Below, piece by piece: positions 17,291 to 38,005 of a DNA stretch of 38,005 nucleotides (positions within the stretch are counted from its first letter, which is position 1; every line of letters begins with the position of its first letter). The notes beneath the pieces are model-generated. The model had not been told where the DNA came from and searched no databases. It saw only the letters and a list, made by a program, of their open reading frames with translations. Source of the DNA: a virus; the IMG/VR virus record IMGVR_UViG_3300048554_000122, positions 1 through 38,005 of that record; one strand, 5' to 3'. Made by a program: the position numbers and the translations under genes.

Positions 17291-17530
17291 ATGAAAACAA
17301 GAGAAGAACTAGGTAACTTACACATCCTTCTAACAGATACTTTAAGTAAAGGTATTCAATTAATGCAAGCAACTGAAGAGTATAACCCTGCTTTACTTAA
17401 CTGTGCCAGGCAACATTTAAAAGATAACGATGTAATTCTTATGAGTGGTAAAGATACTCCACTTAATGACTTGCTAGGAGAAGTGTTACCTTTTGAAGAG
17501 AACCCTGAACTTAAAGAAAAGATTAAGTAA
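17291..17530 (+). CDS. Terminase small subunit (gp18-like)
   Basis: A 79-residue protein, close in size to T7 gp18 (89). It lies immediately upstream of the large terminase, as in T7. The helical sequence with 'YNPALLNCARQHLKDNDVIL' (about residues 35-54) fits the family pattern of an N-terminal oligomerising region and a short C-terminal tail. It would recognise concatemeric DNA and regulate the packaging motor. The assignment depends on position and this segment. Confidence 0.72.
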   Translation: MKTREELGNLHILLTDTLSKGIQLMQATEEYNPALLNCARQHLKDNDVILMSGKDTPLNDLLGEVLPFEENPELKEKIK

Positions 17531-17572: not shown

Positions 17573-19255
17573 ATGAGCATTGAAAAGCTTAAACAACTCA
17601 AGGACTTCCGTAACTTCTTATATGTAGTTTGGAAACACTTGAACCTACCTAATCCTACTGATCTACAGTACGACATAGCTGACTTCATGCAACACGGTCC
17701 TAAACGATCTGTTATCATGGCGTTCCGTGGTGTAGGTAAGTCCTGGATATGTTCTGCCTATGCTGTTCATCAACTACTCCTAGACCCTACTAAGAACATA
17801 CTTGTTGTATCTGCCTCTAAGAACCGTGCTGATGACTTCTCTACCTTTACTTTGAAAATCATACACGACATTCCTGTTCTTCAAGGACTAATACCTAAGA
17901 ACGATCAAAGGTTCTCTAAGATAGCTTTTGATGTAGGACCTGCTCCTGCTGCTCACGCACCCTCCGTTAAGTCACTAGGTATATCCTCCCAGTTAACAGG
18001 TAGCCGAGCTGACATTATCATTGCTGACGATATAGAAGTTCCTAACAACTCTGCTACCCAAGGTATGCGTGATAAGCTAGATGAACAAGTAAAAGAGTTT
18101 GAAGCTATTATAAAGCCCTTAGACACCTCTAGGATTCTCTTTCTAGGTACACCGCAGTGCGAAGACAGTATCTATAACAAACTGCGTGAGAGAGGCTACG
18201 ACGCTCGTATATGGACCTCTGAGTATCCCAGTGAGGATTTAGTGTTAAAAAACTACGATAACGATATAGCTCCTTTTATAACAAATCAGATAACAGAAGA
18301 GACAGTAGGACGCACTACAGAGCCTCTTAGGTTCTCAGATATGGACCTAGAAGAGCGTAAGCTGTCTTATGGGCGTACAGGGTATGCTTTACAGTTCATG
18401 CTTAATCCTAGGCTATCTGACGCTGATAGATACCCTTTAAAGATAAATGATCTGATTATAACAGATATTGATAACGACTTAGCTCCTGAGAAGATTATAT
18501 GGTCCAGTGATCCAGATAACGAAAATAAAGACCTTCCTAATGTAGGACTAGGTGGAGATAGATACCACAGACCTTCTAAGACTATAGGTGATATGGTAGA
18601 GTATACTGGTTCTGTTCTTTCTATTGACCCTAGTGGTAGAGGAAAAGATGAAACAGGGTTTGCTGTTGTTAAGATGCTTAACGGTCAACTCTTTGTTCCT
18701 GAAGCTGGTGGTCTAAAAGGTGGGTACGATGATCAAACACTTAAACAATTAGTACACATAGCCAAGAATAACAAGGTTAACAAGATTATCATAGAGTCTA
18801 ACTTTGGTGATGGTATGTTCATGGAACTACTTAAACCTTTACTTATGACTTCCTACCCTTGTTCCGTTGAAGAAGTAAGACACAGTAAACAAAAAGAACT
18901 TAGAATCATTGATGTCCTGGAACCTGTACTTAATCAACATAAACTTATCGTAGATCCTTCTGTTGTTCAACATGACTATAAAAGTGCTCAAGGATATCCT
19001 ATAGAACATCAAGCTAAGTATATGTTATTCTATCAACTTAGTCGTATAACAAAAGATAAAGGTAGTCTTAATCACGATGATAGATTAGATGCTTTAAGTA
19101 TTGCTGTTAACTACTGGGTAGAACAAATGAATCAAGATGTTGATAATAACATTAACTTTAGAAAACAAGAACTACTAGATAAAGAGTTAACAAAGTTTAC
19201 TGATAGCTTTTATAAAAGAAGTGTTAAAGGTCCTAGAGCTATGCTTTGGTCGTAA
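17573..19255 (+). CDS. Terminase large subunit (gp19-like)
   Basis: The packaging motor and headful or terminus-cutting nuclease, 560 residues (T7 gp19 has 586). The Walker A-type loop is 'AFRGVGKS' at residues 50-57. Walker B is 'IIIADDIE' at 148-155. The RNase H-like nuclease domain has 'SIDPSGRGKDE' with Asp352, then 'IIIESNFGDGMF' and 'NHDDRLDAL' near the C-terminus, giving the acidic metal site. A GA dinucleotide run precedes the start (about 17549-17565) and may serve as a weak ribosome site. This is the last late gene; a terminator lies about 100 bases downstream. Confidence 0.96.
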   Translation: MSIEKLKQLKDFRNFLYVVWKHLNLPNPTDLQYDIADFMQHGPKRSVIMAFRGVGKSWICSAYAVHQLLLDPTKNILVVSASKNRADDFSTFTLKIIHDIPVLQGLIPKNDQRFSKIAFDVGPAPAAHAPSVKSLGISSQLTGSRADIIIADDIEVPNNSATQGMRDKLDEQVKEFEAIIKPLDTSRILFLGTPQCEDSIYNKLRERGYDARIWTSEYPSEDLVLKNYDNDIAPFITNQITEETVGRTTEPLRFSDMDLEERKLSYGRTGYALQFMLNPRLSDADRYPLKINDLIITDIDNDLAPEKIIWSSDPDNENKDLPNVGLGGDRYHRPSKTIGDMVEYTGSVLSIDPSGRGKDETGFAVVKMLNGQLFVPEAGGLKGGYDDQTLKQLVHIAKNNKVNKIIIESNFGDGMFMELLKPLLMTSYPCSVEEVRHSKQKELRIIDVLEPVLNQHKLIVDPSVVQHDYKSAQGYPIEHQAKYMLFYQLSRITKDKGSLNHDDRLDALSIAVNYWVEQMNQDVDNNINFRKQELLDKELTKFTDSFYKRSVKGPRAMLWS

Positions 19256-19647: not shown

Positions 19648-19839
19648 ATGGATATAGATACTCAGACAGACTTGTTAACCAACGACTTATGCAATATAAT
19701 AAATCGCTATAAAGGGGAGTTCGATTTGAATGACCAAACAATCATAGGGGTTCTGGAGTTCGTTAAATATGACTTATTAGCTACCAGTGTTATAGAGTTT
19801 GATCCAGACTTTGACCTAGAAGAAGATGATGACGAGTAG
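19648..19839 (+). CDS. Small acidic protein of unknown function
   Basis: A 63-residue protein, isolated between two non-coding stretches. It has a helical core ('GVLEFVKYDLLATS', about residues 34-47) and an acidic tail with eight acidic residues among the last nine. It has no Shine-Dalgarno site (ATCATGG context). Strongly acidic small proteins at the start of T7-like early regions include DNA mimics such as Ocr. That comparison is only by charge and location, and I see no homology. It is the first gene downstream of the promoter-like motif. Confidence 0.6.
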   Translation: MDIDTQTDLLTNDLCNIINRYKGEFDLNDQTIIGVLEFVKYDLLATSVIEFDPDFDLEEDDDE

Positions 19840-19905
19840 TTCAATTGTATTAGATTTTCATTTTAGTTGAAAAAATTTGAGGGGGTTACGCTATATACGC
19901 GTGCG

Positions 19906-19959
19906 TTAAAATACCCCGTGCGTGCCTGCGTTTTTCTACTGGCGGTGGGGTATGTTTAA
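19906..19959. repeat. GC-rich hairpin
   Basis: TTAAAATACCCC (19906-19917) pairs with GGGGTAT-G-TTTAA (19947-19959), with one bulged G. The loop contains CGTGCGTGCCTGCG and a TTTTT run. A related GCGTGCGTT lies just upstream (19899-19907). GC-rich DNA here stands out against AT-rich surroundings. It could be a terminator, a packaging or cleavage signal, or an origin element. Confidence 0.55.
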
Positions 19960-20071
19960 CAAATCGACAATCAATGCTTTTCATAAATCGTTGGTATTCA
20001 ATAGAGTTATGGGATTAAATCGTACAATATGGATTATGTCTAATTGTTAATAATCAACGACTTAGGTTATT

Positions 20072-20127
20072 TTACACGAGTAAAGCAAGTATAACTCTTT
20101 TGTTATAGTATTACACAAGTAAAGCAA
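20072..20127. repeat. Tandem pair TTACACrAGTAAAGCAA
   Basis: Copies at 20072-20088 and 20111-20127 differ at one position in 17 and are 39 bases apart. The inverted repeat TATAAC-TCTTTT-GTTATA (20090-20107), which includes a TGTTATAGT box, sits between them. The arrangement looks like protein-binding sites flanking a promoter. Confidence 0.55.
20101..20109 (+). promoter_or_regulatory. Extended -10-like box, copy 2
   Basis: TGTTATAGT, identical to the boxes at 19312 and 20474, lies between the two tandem repeats. No convincing -35 hexamer at 16-18 bases. A host promoter for early transcription is plausible because T7 uses tandem host promoters at this location. Confidence 0.33.
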
Positions 20128-20139
20128 ATCGAACAAACA

Positions 20140-20155
20140 AGCTTATTGATAAGCT
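20140..20155. repeat. Perfect inverted repeat AGCTTAT-TG-ATAAGCT
   Basis: Seven-base arms with a two-base spacer, located between the tandem repeat pair and the iteron-like array. Such short-spacer palindromes are typical operator or protein dimer sites. The spacer is too short for an RNA loop without opening the top of the stem. Confidence 0.4.
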
Positions 20156-20194
20156 GTTATCACTTGTAAATTTTGTATTTCTTCTTCGTTTAAT

Positions 20195-20281
20195 TTTGAT
20201 TAGTCAAAGTCTCTAACAATCATTAGTCAAAGTCTCTATCTACTATCAATCAAACTCTTTACTTTGATTAGTCAAAGTCTT
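20195..20281. repeat. Iteron-like array of AGTCAAAGTCT repeats
   Basis: Four copies share the AGTCAAAGTCT core. Aligning the G of AGTC gives positions 20203, 20226, 20249 (degenerate, AATCAAACTCT) and 20271, so the spacing is 23, 23 and 22 bases. Copies 1 and 4 are extended to TTTGATTAGTCAAAGTCT, which contains the inverted repeat TTTGA-TTAG-TCAAA. Regular spacing near two helical turns places each site on about the same DNA face, as in replication iterons or operator arrays. Confidence 0.68.
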
Positions 20282-20473
20282 TTAAACACCGCTTAAACAC
20301 TACAAATTAAACCTCAATCTTTTCATAAAGTCCTGCCAGAGATAGCTTTGCAACAAATGTTTTCGCTTTAACTCTATAAAAAACACCTTGTTAAAACTTT
20401 TTTTAATCTTTTTTATCTCATTAAATATCAATAGTTTACCTACTGATTTTGTAAGCATAGCTATTGACTTGCA

Positions 20474-20482
20474 TGTTATAGT
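20474..20482 (+). promoter_or_regulatory. Extended -10-like box upstream of early genes
   Basis: TGTTATAGT lies 44 bases before the first early ATG at 20527, so a transcript starting about 7 bases later would have a leader of roughly 37 bases. TTGACT occurs at 20465-20470 but is too close to act as its -35. This is the best-placed candidate for an early host promoter. Confidence 0.4.
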
Positions 20483-20505
20483 AGAAATCGAACCAATTAT
20501 TAATT

Positions 20506-20542
20506 ACAAAATAGAAAATCAATATTATGAACCAAGAAAAAT
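20506..20542 (+). repeat. Duplicated translation-start leader, copy 1
   Basis: ACAAAATAGAAAAT (20506-20519), then 7 bases, then ATGAACCAAGA, matches 20747-20784 almost base for base. It covers the leader and first codons of the gene at 20527. A-rich and without a Shine-Dalgarno sequence. Confidence 0.65.
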
Positions 20543-20730
20543 CAAAAGTAGAATTATTAGCAAACGAATACACTGATTGGCTAGTGGAGAACATCGACAA
20601 AGAATATATAGAAAATCAATGTTGTAGTGCTGATTCCATCTTGTGGGATAGCGTTGAATTAAAACTCAATGAAGATCAAAAGCTGTGGCTCAAAAGATTT
20701 ATTACTCGTTGGGACAAAGCTTATCTTTAA
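20527..20730 (+). CDS. Early protein of unknown function
   Basis: A 67-residue soluble protein, acidic in the middle, with paired Cys (CCSAD, about residues 32-36) and several Trp residues ('WLKRFITRWDKAYL' at the end). It is the first gene of the dense early block. It shares its leader and first codons (MNQEK versus MNQDK) with the gene at 20768, although the rest is not obviously alike. No family recognised; a host-takeover role is inferred from position only. Confidence 0.6.
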   Translation: MNQEKSKVELLANEYTDWLVENIDKEYIENQCCSADSILWDSVELKLNEDQKLWLKRFITRWDKAYL

Positions 20731-21316: not shown

Positions 21317-22021
21317 ATGAAACCCAACGGCTTTTTAATTCATGAAGGCAGTAAGAACGGCGAAAAGTTTGCCGTAATTGCCACCTTAAAAACAAGCAAT
21401 CGCAAAACAGGCAACATGATTCAATTGTGGATTCTGTTAGCTGATCATAGCCCAGTTGATGGCGTAAAAAGTGGATTGGATGCATCGACTATTTGTACTG
21501 GTTGCAAATTTGCGAGTGGGAATGGATGTTATGTAAATGTTGGACAAGCTCCCAATTCAATATGGAAGGCATACAAGGCAAATAAATATCCTAAATTGGA
21601 TCCTTTTCTTTACTCTAATGTTTTTAATGGTAGAAAGGTTCGTTTTGGAGCATATGGCAACCCTTCTTTAATACCTTTAAGTATTGTTAAAATGATTACA
21701 GAATCATGCGAGGGATGGACGGGATACTTTCACGACTGGCAAACTATGTCTAAGGAAAAGGCTACCGCTTACGGCAATTATTTCATGGCATCGACTGAGA
21801 CGAACGATTCAGTAAGACGAGCAAAGGAAAAGAATTTGCGTTATTTCCATGTATCACCAGAACAACCAAAGGGCACGATTGAATGCTTAGCAGATAGTAA
21901 AGGATTATCGTGCGATCAATGCCAGCTTTGCAAAGGTAATCGTATCGGAGCAAAGTCAATATGGATAAATCCTCATGGAAGCAAAAAGAAAAGAGCAATA
22001 GAACAAGCAATAAGTAATTAA
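21317..22021 (+). CDS. Cys-rich conserved protein (DUF7227-like)
   Basis: A 234-residue protein and the largest early gene before the RNA polymerase. It has 'RKTGNMIQLWIL' (about residues 36-47), 'CTGCKFASGNGCYVNVGQAP' (about 55-74), then 'RFGAYGNPSLIPL' (about 112-124) and 'CEGWTGYFHDWQ', and a C-terminal 'CDQCQLCKGN' knuckle. This pattern of two Cys clusters around a CYVNxGQAP core matches a family found on plasmids and phages of many bacteria. I believe it is DUF7227. Biochemical function is unknown. The Cys sets could bind zinc or an iron-sulphur cluster. It is an outlier in size and conservation among the small early genes. Confidence 0.75.
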   Translation: MKPNGFLIHEGSKNGEKFAVIATLKTSNRKTGNMIQLWILLADHSPVDGVKSGLDASTICTGCKFASGNGCYVNVGQAPNSIWKAYKANKYPKLDPFLYSNVFNGRKVRFGAYGNPSLIPLSIVKMITESCEGWTGYFHDWQTMSKEKATAYGNYFMASTETNDSVRRAKEKNLRYFHVSPEQPKGTIECLADSKGLSCDQCQLCKGNRIGAKSIWINPHGSKKKRAIEQAISN

Positions 22022-24831: not shown

Positions 24832-25069
24832 GGACTGGGAAGACTTCGATAATAACATCCTGTTAGGCGTGGACTTTGCTGAACAAGTTACGCGAGCGTG
24901 TGATATGTTTTGGAGTAACAATAAATTAGGTTACGATAAAGACGGAAAGATAATTAGAACAGATGAGAAGCGTATTCGTCCGAGAGATTTCAGAGATATG
25001 ATAACGGCTGAAGTTTTAAATAAAAAAGCAGTGATCGAACACCATTTAAATAAAAATGAAAAATGTTAA
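24824..25069 (+). CDS. Early protein upstream of RNA polymerase
   Basis: An 81-residue protein with 'DWEDFDNNILLGVDFAEQVT' (about residues 4-23), then 'WSNNKLGYDKDGKIIRTDEK' and a basic helical end. The start at 24824 is preferred over the in-frame ATG at 24758 because it continues the eight-base overlap pattern and has GAGGAAG upstream. It overlaps the RNA polymerase start by 14 bases, so the two are likely coupled. Function unknown. Confidence 0.6.
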   Translation: MSRDWEDFDNNILLGVDFAEQVTRACDMFWSNNKLGYDKDGKIIRTDEKRIRPRDFRDMITAEVLNKKAVIEHHLNKNEKC

Positions 25070-27434
25070 AGAGTTAGATTACGATATGATCCAATGGGGA
25101 AAAGCTAGGTATAGAAAAGCCCAAGAGATTTACAAAGCCCAAGGATATAACAGCGAATTGCCAGCTTATAAGAAGTTAGGCAGAGAAGTACACGTCCCTA
25201 TCGAACACGCTGTAAATAAATTCTTTGAAGACAACGCTAGACCTAACGCACCTGTACCTGTTTGGTTGCCTTATATATGGGACTTAGAACCTAGCGTTGT
25301 AGCTTTTCTAGGAGTAAAGGTATTGTTTGACATCTTACCTGGTGAACCTTACATATCCGAGGCTTCCTTTTTAGTAGCTAAAGCTTTGGAAGATGAAGTA
25401 CGTGTCCGTTATTTTAAAGAGAATGTGACGGAGAGTGATTGGTTGTTATTAAAACGAGACCAAAAGGATGTACTTACAAGGAATAGATTTGTTAATAAGT
25501 TCTGGGATAAAGAAAGAAAGTATCACAAACAAGGAAGGTATCAAAGGTTTGAACTTTGGAGTAAGCGTAATAAGATCATGCTTGGTTCTTGGTTAATTGA
25601 ATTGATAAGGATGCAAACTAATTTATTCCACGTTAAAATCAAGTACACTTACACCACTGCCAAACGGAAAGTCATAGCTCCTAATAAAGACTTGTATGCG
25701 TGGGTAAATAAATACGATGAGAATTGTGAGGTCATTCGTCCGTTCTATTTAGCCACACCTAAACCACCTGTTGATTGGATAGATAACTACGGAGGAGGAT
25801 ACAATAGTGAAGGACTACCTACTCTTCCTATAATGAAGATCAAGAACAACGATGGTATAAAACACAGAGACCTTAGCCCAGCTTACGCACCACTTAACCG
25901 ACTGCAACGAGTAGCTTGGAAGATCAATCCGAAGATGTTAAATCTTATGACTTGGGCGTGGAGTAAGGACCTAACTATAGGAGGAATGGAGAAGAGTGAG
26001 TTGTTAAAACCACTTGATATTGTACCTAACCTAGCAGACACAGACCCAGTAGCTTTCACTGAATGGAAGCGTAAACAAAAAGAGATATACGAATATAATT
26101 TAAGGAGTAACGGACAGCGTATGAGATGCTTGAAGATACTTAATGTAGCAAAACGCTACGCTGAATTAGATGAGTTCTACTTTCCTTATCAGATGGACTA
26201 TAGAGGACGAGTGTATTCAATACCTAGTTATGTTAACCCACAATCCTGTGACTTTGGAAGGAGTGCTTTACAATTTGCTAAAGGAGTACCTATAAATAAC
26301 GATGAAGATAGTAGATGGTTAAGGATTCACGGAGCTAATGTCTTCGGAGTAAAAGGAAGTTATGAAGAACGATTAGCTTGGATAGATAAGAAGAAGGACT
26401 TGATACTTGAAAGTGCAAATGATCCTTGTGAGTGTAACTGGTGGCAAGAAGCGAGTGATCCGTGGGCTTTCATACACTTTTGTTTTGAATACGCTGAGTT
26501 TAAAAAGCACGGATGGGGATTTGAAACGAGGTTACCTTGTCACATGGACGCTAGTTGTAATGGCATACAGATTCTATCTTTGTTAACAAGAGATGAAGAG
26601 TCTGGACACCACGTTAACTTATTACCTTGCCAGAAACCACAGGATATATACCAGGAAGTAGCTGATCAAGTGTACGATAGGTTAATGAAAGACAAAAGTA
26701 AGAACAGCTTGGCTGGAGATTGGTTAAAGTTTGGAATAGATCGTAGCTTTACGAAGAAGATAGTGATGTGCAAACCGTTTGGAATGAATGGATACACAAG
26801 TAAAGATGCCTTGGAAGATGCTGTTGTTAAAAGACTTAAGGAAGGATTAGGTAGTCCGTTCAGCAAGGAAGATTTTAACGAGGCTATGATATACTTAGCT
26901 TCTTTAATCAACGACAAAGCCAACGCTTTAATCCAACCACATTTAGAATTGATGAAGTGGTTTAAAGGTATAGCTAGGACTGACAAACCTTTGAAGTGGA
27001 CTACACCTTTTGGATTGGAAATTGTACAAGCTTTATACGATCAAACAATAGTTAAAGTGAGCAGCATTCTTAATATGCAAAACACTATTCTTACATTTAA
27101 TAACAGACAGAAAGGTATATGTAGTAAACGAATGGCACGAGCAATTGTACCTAATTATATACATAGTCTTGACTCATCTGTTATGATGGAATTAGCTTGC
27201 AAAAGTGATTATTCTATAGCAAGTATACACGATAGCTTTGCAACTCAAAGCCCGAACGCACCGAAAATGCACCAACAACTAAGAGAGATTTACGAACAAC
27301 ACTTTAGCGACGATCTTGTCAACAAGTTCAAGGACGAGATTGAAGCACAAAGAGGATGTAAACTGGAAGACAGCCCTGAACTTGGCACACTAGATGTGTC
27401 GGCACTTAACGACTGTCAGTATATATTCTCATAA
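25056..27434 (+). CDS. DNA-directed RNA polymerase, single-subunit T7 type
   Basis: A 792-residue phage polymerase (T7 has 883). It reads the middle and late phage genes from phage promoters. The catalytic 'MDASCNGIQ' contains Asp498, equivalent to T7 Asp537. 'RSFTKKIVMCKPFGMNGY' begins at Arg563; Lys567 corresponds to T7 Lys631 and Phe575 corresponds to T7 Tyr639. 'IHDSFAT' has Asp726, equivalent to T7 Asp812. Phe at the Tyr639 position is notable because the T7 Y639F mutant loses ribose selectivity. The N-terminal domain is shorter than in T7. The A-rich start (AAATAAAAATG) has no Shine-Dalgarno site and overlaps the upstream gene, suggesting translational coupling. Confidence 0.96.
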   Translation: MKNVKELDYDMIQWGKARYRKAQEIYKAQGYNSELPAYKKLGREVHVPIEHAVNKFFEDNARPNAPVPVWLPYIWDLEPSVVAFLGVKVLFDILPGEPYISEASFLVAKALEDEVRVRYFKENVTESDWLLLKRDQKDVLTRNRFVNKFWDKERKYHKQGRYQRFELWSKRNKIMLGSWLIELIRMQTNLFHVKIKYTYTTAKRKVIAPNKDLYAWVNKYDENCEVIRPFYLATPKPPVDWIDNYGGGYNSEGLPTLPIMKIKNNDGIKHRDLSPAYAPLNRLQRVAWKINPKMLNLMTWAWSKDLTIGGMEKSELLKPLDIVPNLADTDPVAFTEWKRKQKEIYEYNLRSNGQRMRCLKILNVAKRYAELDEFYFPYQMDYRGRVYSIPSYVNPQSCDFGRSALQFAKGVPINNDEDSRWLRIHGANVFGVKGSYEERLAWIDKKKDLILESANDPCECNWWQEASDPWAFIHFCFEYAEFKKHGWGFETRLPCHMDASCNGIQILSLLTRDEESGHHVNLLPCQKPQDIYQEVADQVYDRLMKDKSKNSLAGDWLKFGIDRSFTKKIVMCKPFGMNGYTSKDALEDAVVKRLKEGLGSPFSKEDFNEAMIYLASLINDKANALIQPHLELMKWFKGIARTDKPLKWTTPFGLEIVQALYDQTIVKVSSILNMQNTILTFNNRQKGICSKRMARAIVPNYIHSLDSSVMMELACKSDYSIASIHDSFATQSPNAPKMHQQLREIYEQHFSDDLVNKFKDEIEAQRGCKLEDSPELGTLDVSALNDCQYIFS

Positions 27435-36864: not shown

Positions 36865-38005
36865 ATGCAAGAAACAGCACAAGGGCTATACCACTCCTTA
36901 GAGAACCAAAGGTGGTCTTTCTTGGATCGAGGTCGTACCTCATCTGAGTTGACTATACCTTACATAATGCCACCCGATGGACACAACTACGCTACTAAGT
37001 ATTACACACCTTATCAAGGAGTAGGAGCTAGAGGAGTAAACAACTTAGCTTCTAAATTACTATTAGCTTTGTTACCACCTAACGCTCCGTTCTTCCGTCT
37101 TGTTATAGACAGGTATGAATTAGATAAAGCAAAACAGGAGTTAGGACCAGAGGGAGGAGAGCAATTACGATCTGACTTAGAGAAAGCATTAGCAGATGTA
37201 GAACGAAGTGTATCTCAAGAAGTAGAAGTTGAAGCATTTCGAGTAGGAGTGTTTGAAGCGTTAAAGAATCTATTAGTGACAGGAAATACTTTGTTATACT
37301 TACCAGATGACGGTGGAATGAGAGTATTCAGACTTGATAGGTACTGTGTTAAGAGAGACCCAATGGGTAATGTAACACACATAGCTATCAAAGAAACTGT
37401 TGCTCCAATGATGTTACCTGAGTCTGTAAGAGAGGAAGTATATCGTCAAGAGAAAGAGAATAGCTGTGACTTGTACACCTCTGTAGTTAGAGAAGGTAAT
37501 GAATATGTAGTACAACAAGATGTAAAAGGAATTGTTATTGAAGAGTCAAAGGGTAGGTATCCTATTGAGAAGACTCCATTCCTACCTCTTCGTTATACAA
37601 GAATAGATGGTGAAGACTACGGACGAGGATTTGTTGAGGAGTACATTGGTGATCTTAAATCTTTAGAGTCGTTAACAAAAGCGATAGTCGAAGGTAGTGC
37701 AGCAGCAGCTAAGGTATTGTTCATGGTTAATCCTAACGGTACAACCAGGGCTAAGACTTTATCTGAATCTCCTAACGGTGCGATTGTACAAGGTAGTGAT
37801 GGAGATGTATCTGTCTTACAACTTAACAAGTTCAATGACTTCCGTACTGCACAAGGAGTAATGAATGGGATTAGTGATAGACTATCTCAAGCTTTCCTAC
37901 TTAACAGTGGTGTAGTCAGAGATGCAGAACGAGTAACAGCAGAGGAGATAAGAATGTTATCTCAAGAGTTGGAAGCTGCACTTGGTGGTCTGTATTCTTT
38001 ATTGT
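36865..38005 (+). CDS. Portal (head-tail connector) protein, N-terminal part
   Basis: The start and first 380 residues of the gp8-type portal, open to the end of the window and continued at 1-574. Residues about 45-75 read 'NYATKYYTPYQGVGARGVNN' and 'LASKLLLALLPP', the strongest signature of T7-type portals (TxYqxvGARGVNNLASKL). No stop occurs in this frame. The ATG is three bases after the preceding stop with no Shine-Dalgarno site. Confidence 0.95.
   Translation, partial: MQETAQGLYHSLENQRWSFLDRGRTSSELTIPYIMPPDGHNYATKYYTPYQGVGARGVNNLASKLLLALLPPNAPFFRLVIDRYELDKAKQELGPEGGEQLRSDLEKALADVERSVSQEVEVEAFRVGVFEALKNLLVTGNTLLYLPDDGGMRVFRLDRYCVKRDPMGNVTHIAIKETVAPMMLPESVREEVYRQEKENSCDLYTSVVREGNEYVVQQDVKGIVIEESKGRYPIEKTPFLPLRYTRIDGEDYGRGFVEEYIGDLKSLESLTKAIVEGSAAAAKVLFMVNPNGTTRAKTLSESPNGAIVQGSDGDVSVLQLNKFNDFRTAQGVMNGISDRLSQAFLLNSGVVRDAERVTAEEIRMLSQELEAALGGLYSLL
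37848..38005. repeat. Terminal overlap copy 2 (circular closure)
   Basis: A repeat of 1-158 in the same orientation with one synonymous mismatch at 37879. See the entry at 1-158. Removing one copy gives a circular length of about 37,847 bp and restores an intact portal gene. Confidence 0.93.

Follow-up and report, generated by a model that had tools for sequence, protein, structure and literature searches.

T7-like phages are usually thought to begin transcription from strong, constitutive host promoters. In T7 itself, an array of short CCTAAAG repeats (SRL/SRR; 175-355) spaced by ~13 bp occupies the left-end gap, after the terminal repeat and before the early promoters, and reading by the packaging machinery is suspected. 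Arrays at this place are therefore not foreign to T7-like phages, and the original prediction, which held that iterons are not a known feature of such phages, was not quite right in this respect. Operator and enhancer arrays are also already known as such elsewhere. In the operator/immunity regions of temperate (lambdoid) phages multiple phased dyads lie at early promoters and their specificity is exchanged by recombination, and enhancer sites upstream of a sigma54 promoter are the usual arrangement. The array described here is like that of T7 in being made of short repeats at regular spacing in what is presumably the left-end gap, ahead of candidate host-type early promoters, and differs from it in spacing, one-sidedness and exchange of specificity: its sites are dyad-derived and 22-23 bp apart (7-bp sites at ~13 bp in T7), it has no SRR-like counterpart, and it is swapped for unrelated arrays among near-identical phages. 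Within a narrow and partial coverage of open full-text papers, we met no account of operator arrays being exchanged at the left ends of T7-like genomes.

The window, that is the whole stretch of 38,005 bases analysed, is one virus record. Its ends (1-158 and 37848-38005) share a 158-base overlap that contains one mismatch, so that the record closes into a circular map of a T7-like genome of ~37.8 kb. Genes for a T7-type SSB, primase-helicase, DNA polymerase and exonuclease are located after the RNA polymerase gene (Table 1). No integrase or repressor was recognised among the proteins scanned, and the phage is thus apparently virulent. The array sits ~1 kb beyond the large terminase gene, in a gap flanked by a conserved 63-aa gene (19648-19839) on one side and by the first early gene (20527) on the other; by T7 gene order, this gap probably contains the left end with the terminal repeat. 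The contig ends of relatives, taken as markers of the terminal repeat, scatter in position and were of no help. The sequence GAAAAAATTTGAGGGGGTTACGCTATATACGCG at 19869-19901, which occurs once in the window and in near-identical form in those relatives that were inspected, is perhaps linked to the genome end. Further downstream, the early protein encoded at 21317-22021 (phrog_2554, 234 aa) has a homologue in Pseudoalteromonas phage KB12-38 that is annotated as antirestriction, a function that, if the annotation is applicable, would parallel T7 gene 0.3.

Table 1. Positions of the array copies, their flanking elements and the main genes referred to in the text
Feature	Position	Strand	Basis
Putative small terminase	17291-17530		named by position only
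Large terminase	17573-19255		homologues annotated terminase or DNA maturase B
Exchangeable cassette U1 upstream of the block, a pair of TTACACrAGTAAAGCAA repeats at a distance of 39 bp	20072-20134	+
Dyad TGATAAGCTGTTATCA directly upstream of the block	20147-20162	.	occurs in several upstream cassette kinds
Conserved promoter-like block GTAAATTTTGTATTTCTTCTTCGTTTA	20166-20192	+	TAHHTTTG in relatives, breakpoint, published -7 consensus
Array copy 1, full dyad TTTGATTAGTCAAAGTCT	20195-20212	+	motif and alignment of relatives' arrays
Array copy 2, right half retained, AATCATTAGTCAAAGTCT	20218-20235	+	motif and alignment of relatives' arrays
Array copy 3, right half retained, TACTATCAATCAAACTCT	20241-20258	+	motif and alignment of relatives' arrays
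Array copy 4, full dyad TTTGATTAGTCAAAGTCT within ACTTTGATTAGTCAAAGT	20263-20280	+	motif and alignment of relatives' arrays
Tail T1, holding TAGCTTTG (20343-20350), candidate -7 box of a second promoter	20300-20375	+	conserved in many relatives
First early gene downstream, 67 aa, no assigned function	20527-20730	+	family not tied to array type
T7-type RNA polymerase	25056-27434

The array is real. Four sites of the TTTGAyyArTCAAAGTCT type follow one another at 20195-20280 with spacings of 23, 23 and 22 bp, as originally predicted, and their four-site chain score of 33 is reached in 0/300 dinucleotide shuffles of the region 19840-20526 (mean 22.75, maximum 26). The sequence TTAGTCAAAGTCT has three exact occurrences in the window, every one inside the array, and copy 3 differs from it by three bases; elsewhere in the window the motif shows no excess over chance. 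The inverted left arm (TTTGA...TCAAA) is carried by copies 1 and 4, which bears out the prediction that two copies are extended by an inverted repeat, and copies 2 and 3 consist of the right half alone. The register given in the prediction for a G in each copy also holds, except that position 20249, in copy 3, is an A.

To find relatives, IMG/VR was scanned with the 18-base site, and a terminase search yielded 80 loci. One relative from the scan, L011, carries both full copies, likewise separated by 68 bp. The exact 23-23-22 arrangement is found in 12 distinct arrays, the window's and 11 from uncultured relatives, in which the spacer bases drift, and shorter arrays of 2-3 copies hold the 22-23 bp register. 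The original prediction had looked to close relatives with conserved flanks for the array and its spacing; these 11 arrays keep the spacing, while other relatives with conserved flanks have a different repeat array instead. Mean information is 1.78 bits in the cores versus 1.57 elsewhere, a modest difference. Two relatives have a broken left arm in copy 1, which leaves the right half, RTCAAASTCT, as the most constant portion of the motif. What is found is thus several helically phased sites of the same specificity, conserved against drifting spacers, as in a multi-site operator or enhancer. Copies about two helical turns apart would align protein units on one face of the DNA.

At the same position and after the same upstream flank, other relatives carry arrays unrelated to that of the window (type A). 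We distinguish type B (AGGTAAT...TTCCTA), type C (TTTCAA...TTGAAA), type D (ATGACATCATGACGTC), type E (dyad TGTATAAAnnCTATACA, spacings 20-22 and 32-33) and type F (dyad CCATATTTGG, 19 bp apart). In near-identical relatives the switch of array is sharp and comes directly after the conserved block containing TAAATTTG. For example, L076 (type A) and L077 (type D), whose terminase genes are 99.6% identical, are nearly identical up to the right end of the block, where the exchange starts, and then divergent through the array and first genes. When array type is placed on the terminase tree, 41 rows need 16 changes (shuffled mean 19.7); with near-clonal same-type pairs removed, 32 rows need 15 changes versus 15.7 with shuffled labels, so that no linkage between array type and terminase phylogeny is left. 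Modularity extends to the sequence upstream of the block (kinds U1-U6) and to the tail between the array and the first gene (T1-T3 plus a sigma54-like kind), and the combinations are mixed, type A being found with four upstream kinds and two tails. These comparisons show modular exchange of the array among relatives. The array would behave as a cassette, with recombination at the end of the conserved promoter-like block swapping in arrays of other specificity.

Array type is independent of the phage genes that we compared. RNA polymerase is 99-100% identical across relatives of type A (L095, L096), C (L118) and F (L097), the putative small terminase is 100% identical to that of the window in relatives of type A (L006, L018, L024) and type C (L019), and terminase genes are 98.5-99.6% identical among relatives with unrelated arrays. 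Across 45 contigs, the early gene families show no correspondence with array type, types A and C having families in common. When the genes of the window were compared with 22 contigs, many of them partial, none was common to all type A contigs and missing from the others, a result that is strong where the early region is concerned and weaker for the remaining genome. Because RNA polymerase, terminase and early genes show no change that follows array type, the protein reading the array is most likely host-encoded, by elimination over the phage genes compared in partly incomplete contigs. No binding protein for the array was found. A scan of 295 genomes belonging to one class, which was reached by way of a Bacteroidota MAG, turned up no full-dyad site; the terminase was not found in them either, which is uninformative as no positive control exists. 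The two-site pattern had 12 matches in an 84,980-species genome collection, all in chance-like or unrelated-repeat contexts.

The sequences flanking the array suggest where it might act. TAHHTTTG, the Bacteroidota -7 consensus (PMC6847099; PMC9723704), is present in 33 of the 36 distinct copies of the block. The window's own copy is interrupted, reading TAAATTTTG, with one extra T, where the -7 box of its relatives reads TAAATTTG, which weakens the case for a promoter in the window's genome. An exact TAATTTTG does occur in the window, at 20191-20198, its TTTG being the left arm of copy 1. A Shine-Dalgarno-like sequence precedes only 7 of 37 start codons and A stands at -3 in 27 of them; Shine-Dalgarno poverty and A at -3 have both been described for Bacteroidota (PMC6847099). 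Taken together with the -7 box in the blocks, these features make a Bacteroidota host likely, though not proven. Sigma70-type promoters near the array show no excess over shuffles.

The T1 tail (AAACACTACAAA...AATCTTTTCATAAAGTmCTGCCAGA.ATArCTTTACAACAAA) is strongly conserved and recurs in many type A, C, D and F relatives. Judging from its -7-like box, it is possibly a second promoter. The array would lie at about +17 to +102 relative to the first candidate promoter, i.e. downstream of it, and ~75-160 bp upstream of the second. The downstream position fits repression better than activation; at the first candidate promoter the array may act in repression or as a roadblock, and at the second in activation or repression.

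A transcriptional role for this position is also supported by the relatives with type B and E arrays. In 4/4 such loci examined (L098, L100, L045 and L107), the sequence TGGCAy-N5-nTGC, which matches the -24/-12 form of sigma54 promoters, lies 20-70 bp downstream of the array, an arrangement like that of sigma54 activator enhancers. The window's type A array differs in having no -24/-12 element downstream, and no sigma54-like element was found near the type A, C, D and F arrays; the support therefore concerns the position and not type A itself. The elements stand before early genes in L098/L029 (two copies), L100/L034, L045 and L107, and in L098 the second copy precedes the next gene. Sigma54 promoters and three predicted activators have been reported for Flavobacterium psychrophilum (PMC9723704). 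In L045, an open frame is also inserted between the terminase and the early region, ~350-760 bases past the terminase; to the eye it looks like the C-terminal part of a cytosine methyltransferase.

Taken together, we think it probable, by a modest degree, that the array is a multi-site element controlling early transcription by host RNA polymerase, read by the host and carried as an exchangeable cassette by a T7-like phage, probably of Bacteroidota. We infer that a sequence-specific DNA-binding protein, probably of the host, would occupy the array and control transcription by host RNA polymerase into the first early genes. The original prediction had offered an origin, an operator for an early regulator or a terminase site. 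Of these, the operator fits best, given the position of the array between a promoter-like block with a -7 box and the first early gene, its protein-site anatomy and its replacement by other dyad arrays, although a host reader is favoured here over the early regulator then named; the other two fared less well, as discussed below.

The regulator might instead be encoded by the phage, a small early protein or superinfection-immunity repressor that shuts the early promoter both in its own genome and in incoming same-type phages. Such an operator would have its phased dyads just 3' of the promoter-like block, as here, and the exchange of specificity resembles that of lambdoid immunity regions; in the L076/L077 pair the first genes also differ along with the array. 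However, no early gene family tracks array type, types A and C sharing families, no window gene sets the type A contigs, partial as many are, apart from the others, and Pfam and PHROGs recognised no repressor-like fold in the small early proteins. A further difference from lambdoid immunity regions is that no co-exchanged repressor gene was found in the incomplete contigs and that the phage looks virulent. We therefore regard a phage-encoded regulator as rather unlikely; its gene would have to lie outside the regions compared or be among those missing from the partial contigs. Titration of a host regulator or defence repressor by the array acting as a decoy, with no direct role at a promoter, would be in keeping with several sites of one specificity that are exchanged between phages; it is very unlikely, since there are only 2-4 sites per genome and since both the fixed position beside the promoter-like block and the sigma54-like promoters next to types B and E suit control in place.

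The place of the array in the gap between terminase and early genes, and the spaced CCTAAAG array of T7, would suit an element for packaging or concatemer processing beside the terminal repeat. Against the predicted terminase site, however, relatives whose terminase genes are 98.5-99.6% identical, in one case with a 100% identical putative small terminase, carry unrelated arrays, so by this indirect test the packaging reading suspected for T7 would not extend to this locus; neither is there a partner array across the presumed end in a motif search of the window, and a packaging role is improbable. Identical or near-identical terminase proteins under unrelated arrays likewise speak against a terminase/pac site. 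Even less probable is an iteron-type replication origin, in which the AT-rich tail following the array would serve as unwinding element. Direct repeats of 22-23 bp adjoining an AT-rich stretch do recall plasmid iterons, but the phage encodes T7-type replication genes (primase-helicase, polymerase and SSB), no iteron-type initiator gene was recognised, and the array is replaced by unrelated sequences while the replication genes stay unchanged; the prediction of an origin found no positive support. Least probable is that the repeats are RNA leader hairpins or promoters of the phage RNA polymerase. Copies 1 and 4 are able to form short stems and the array comes after the promoter-like block, yet the covariation term is unfavourable, with pairs broken, and there is no Rfam match; on these grounds RNA hairpins were set aside. 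Phage promoters are rejected because array types differ under 99-100% identical polymerases; the motif was also not found at late genes, and no repeated phage-promoter motif is evident in the window.

Our preferred reading, an array read by the host, may be extended to the group, if only tentatively: apparently virulent T7-like marine phages may carry interchangeable left-end cis-regulatory 'address' cassettes, with a different host transcription factor reading each one and sigma54 activators doing so for some types. If this is true, host identity or state would gate early phage gene expression, and specificity would be exchanged by recombination with the phage genes unchanged. Near-identical phages that differ in array type offer a ready natural experiment, and array type would give a sequence handle on the regulator consulted by each phage. 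With exchangeable operator arrays at the point where transcription starts, virulent phages would tune or gate the first step of infection through regulators.
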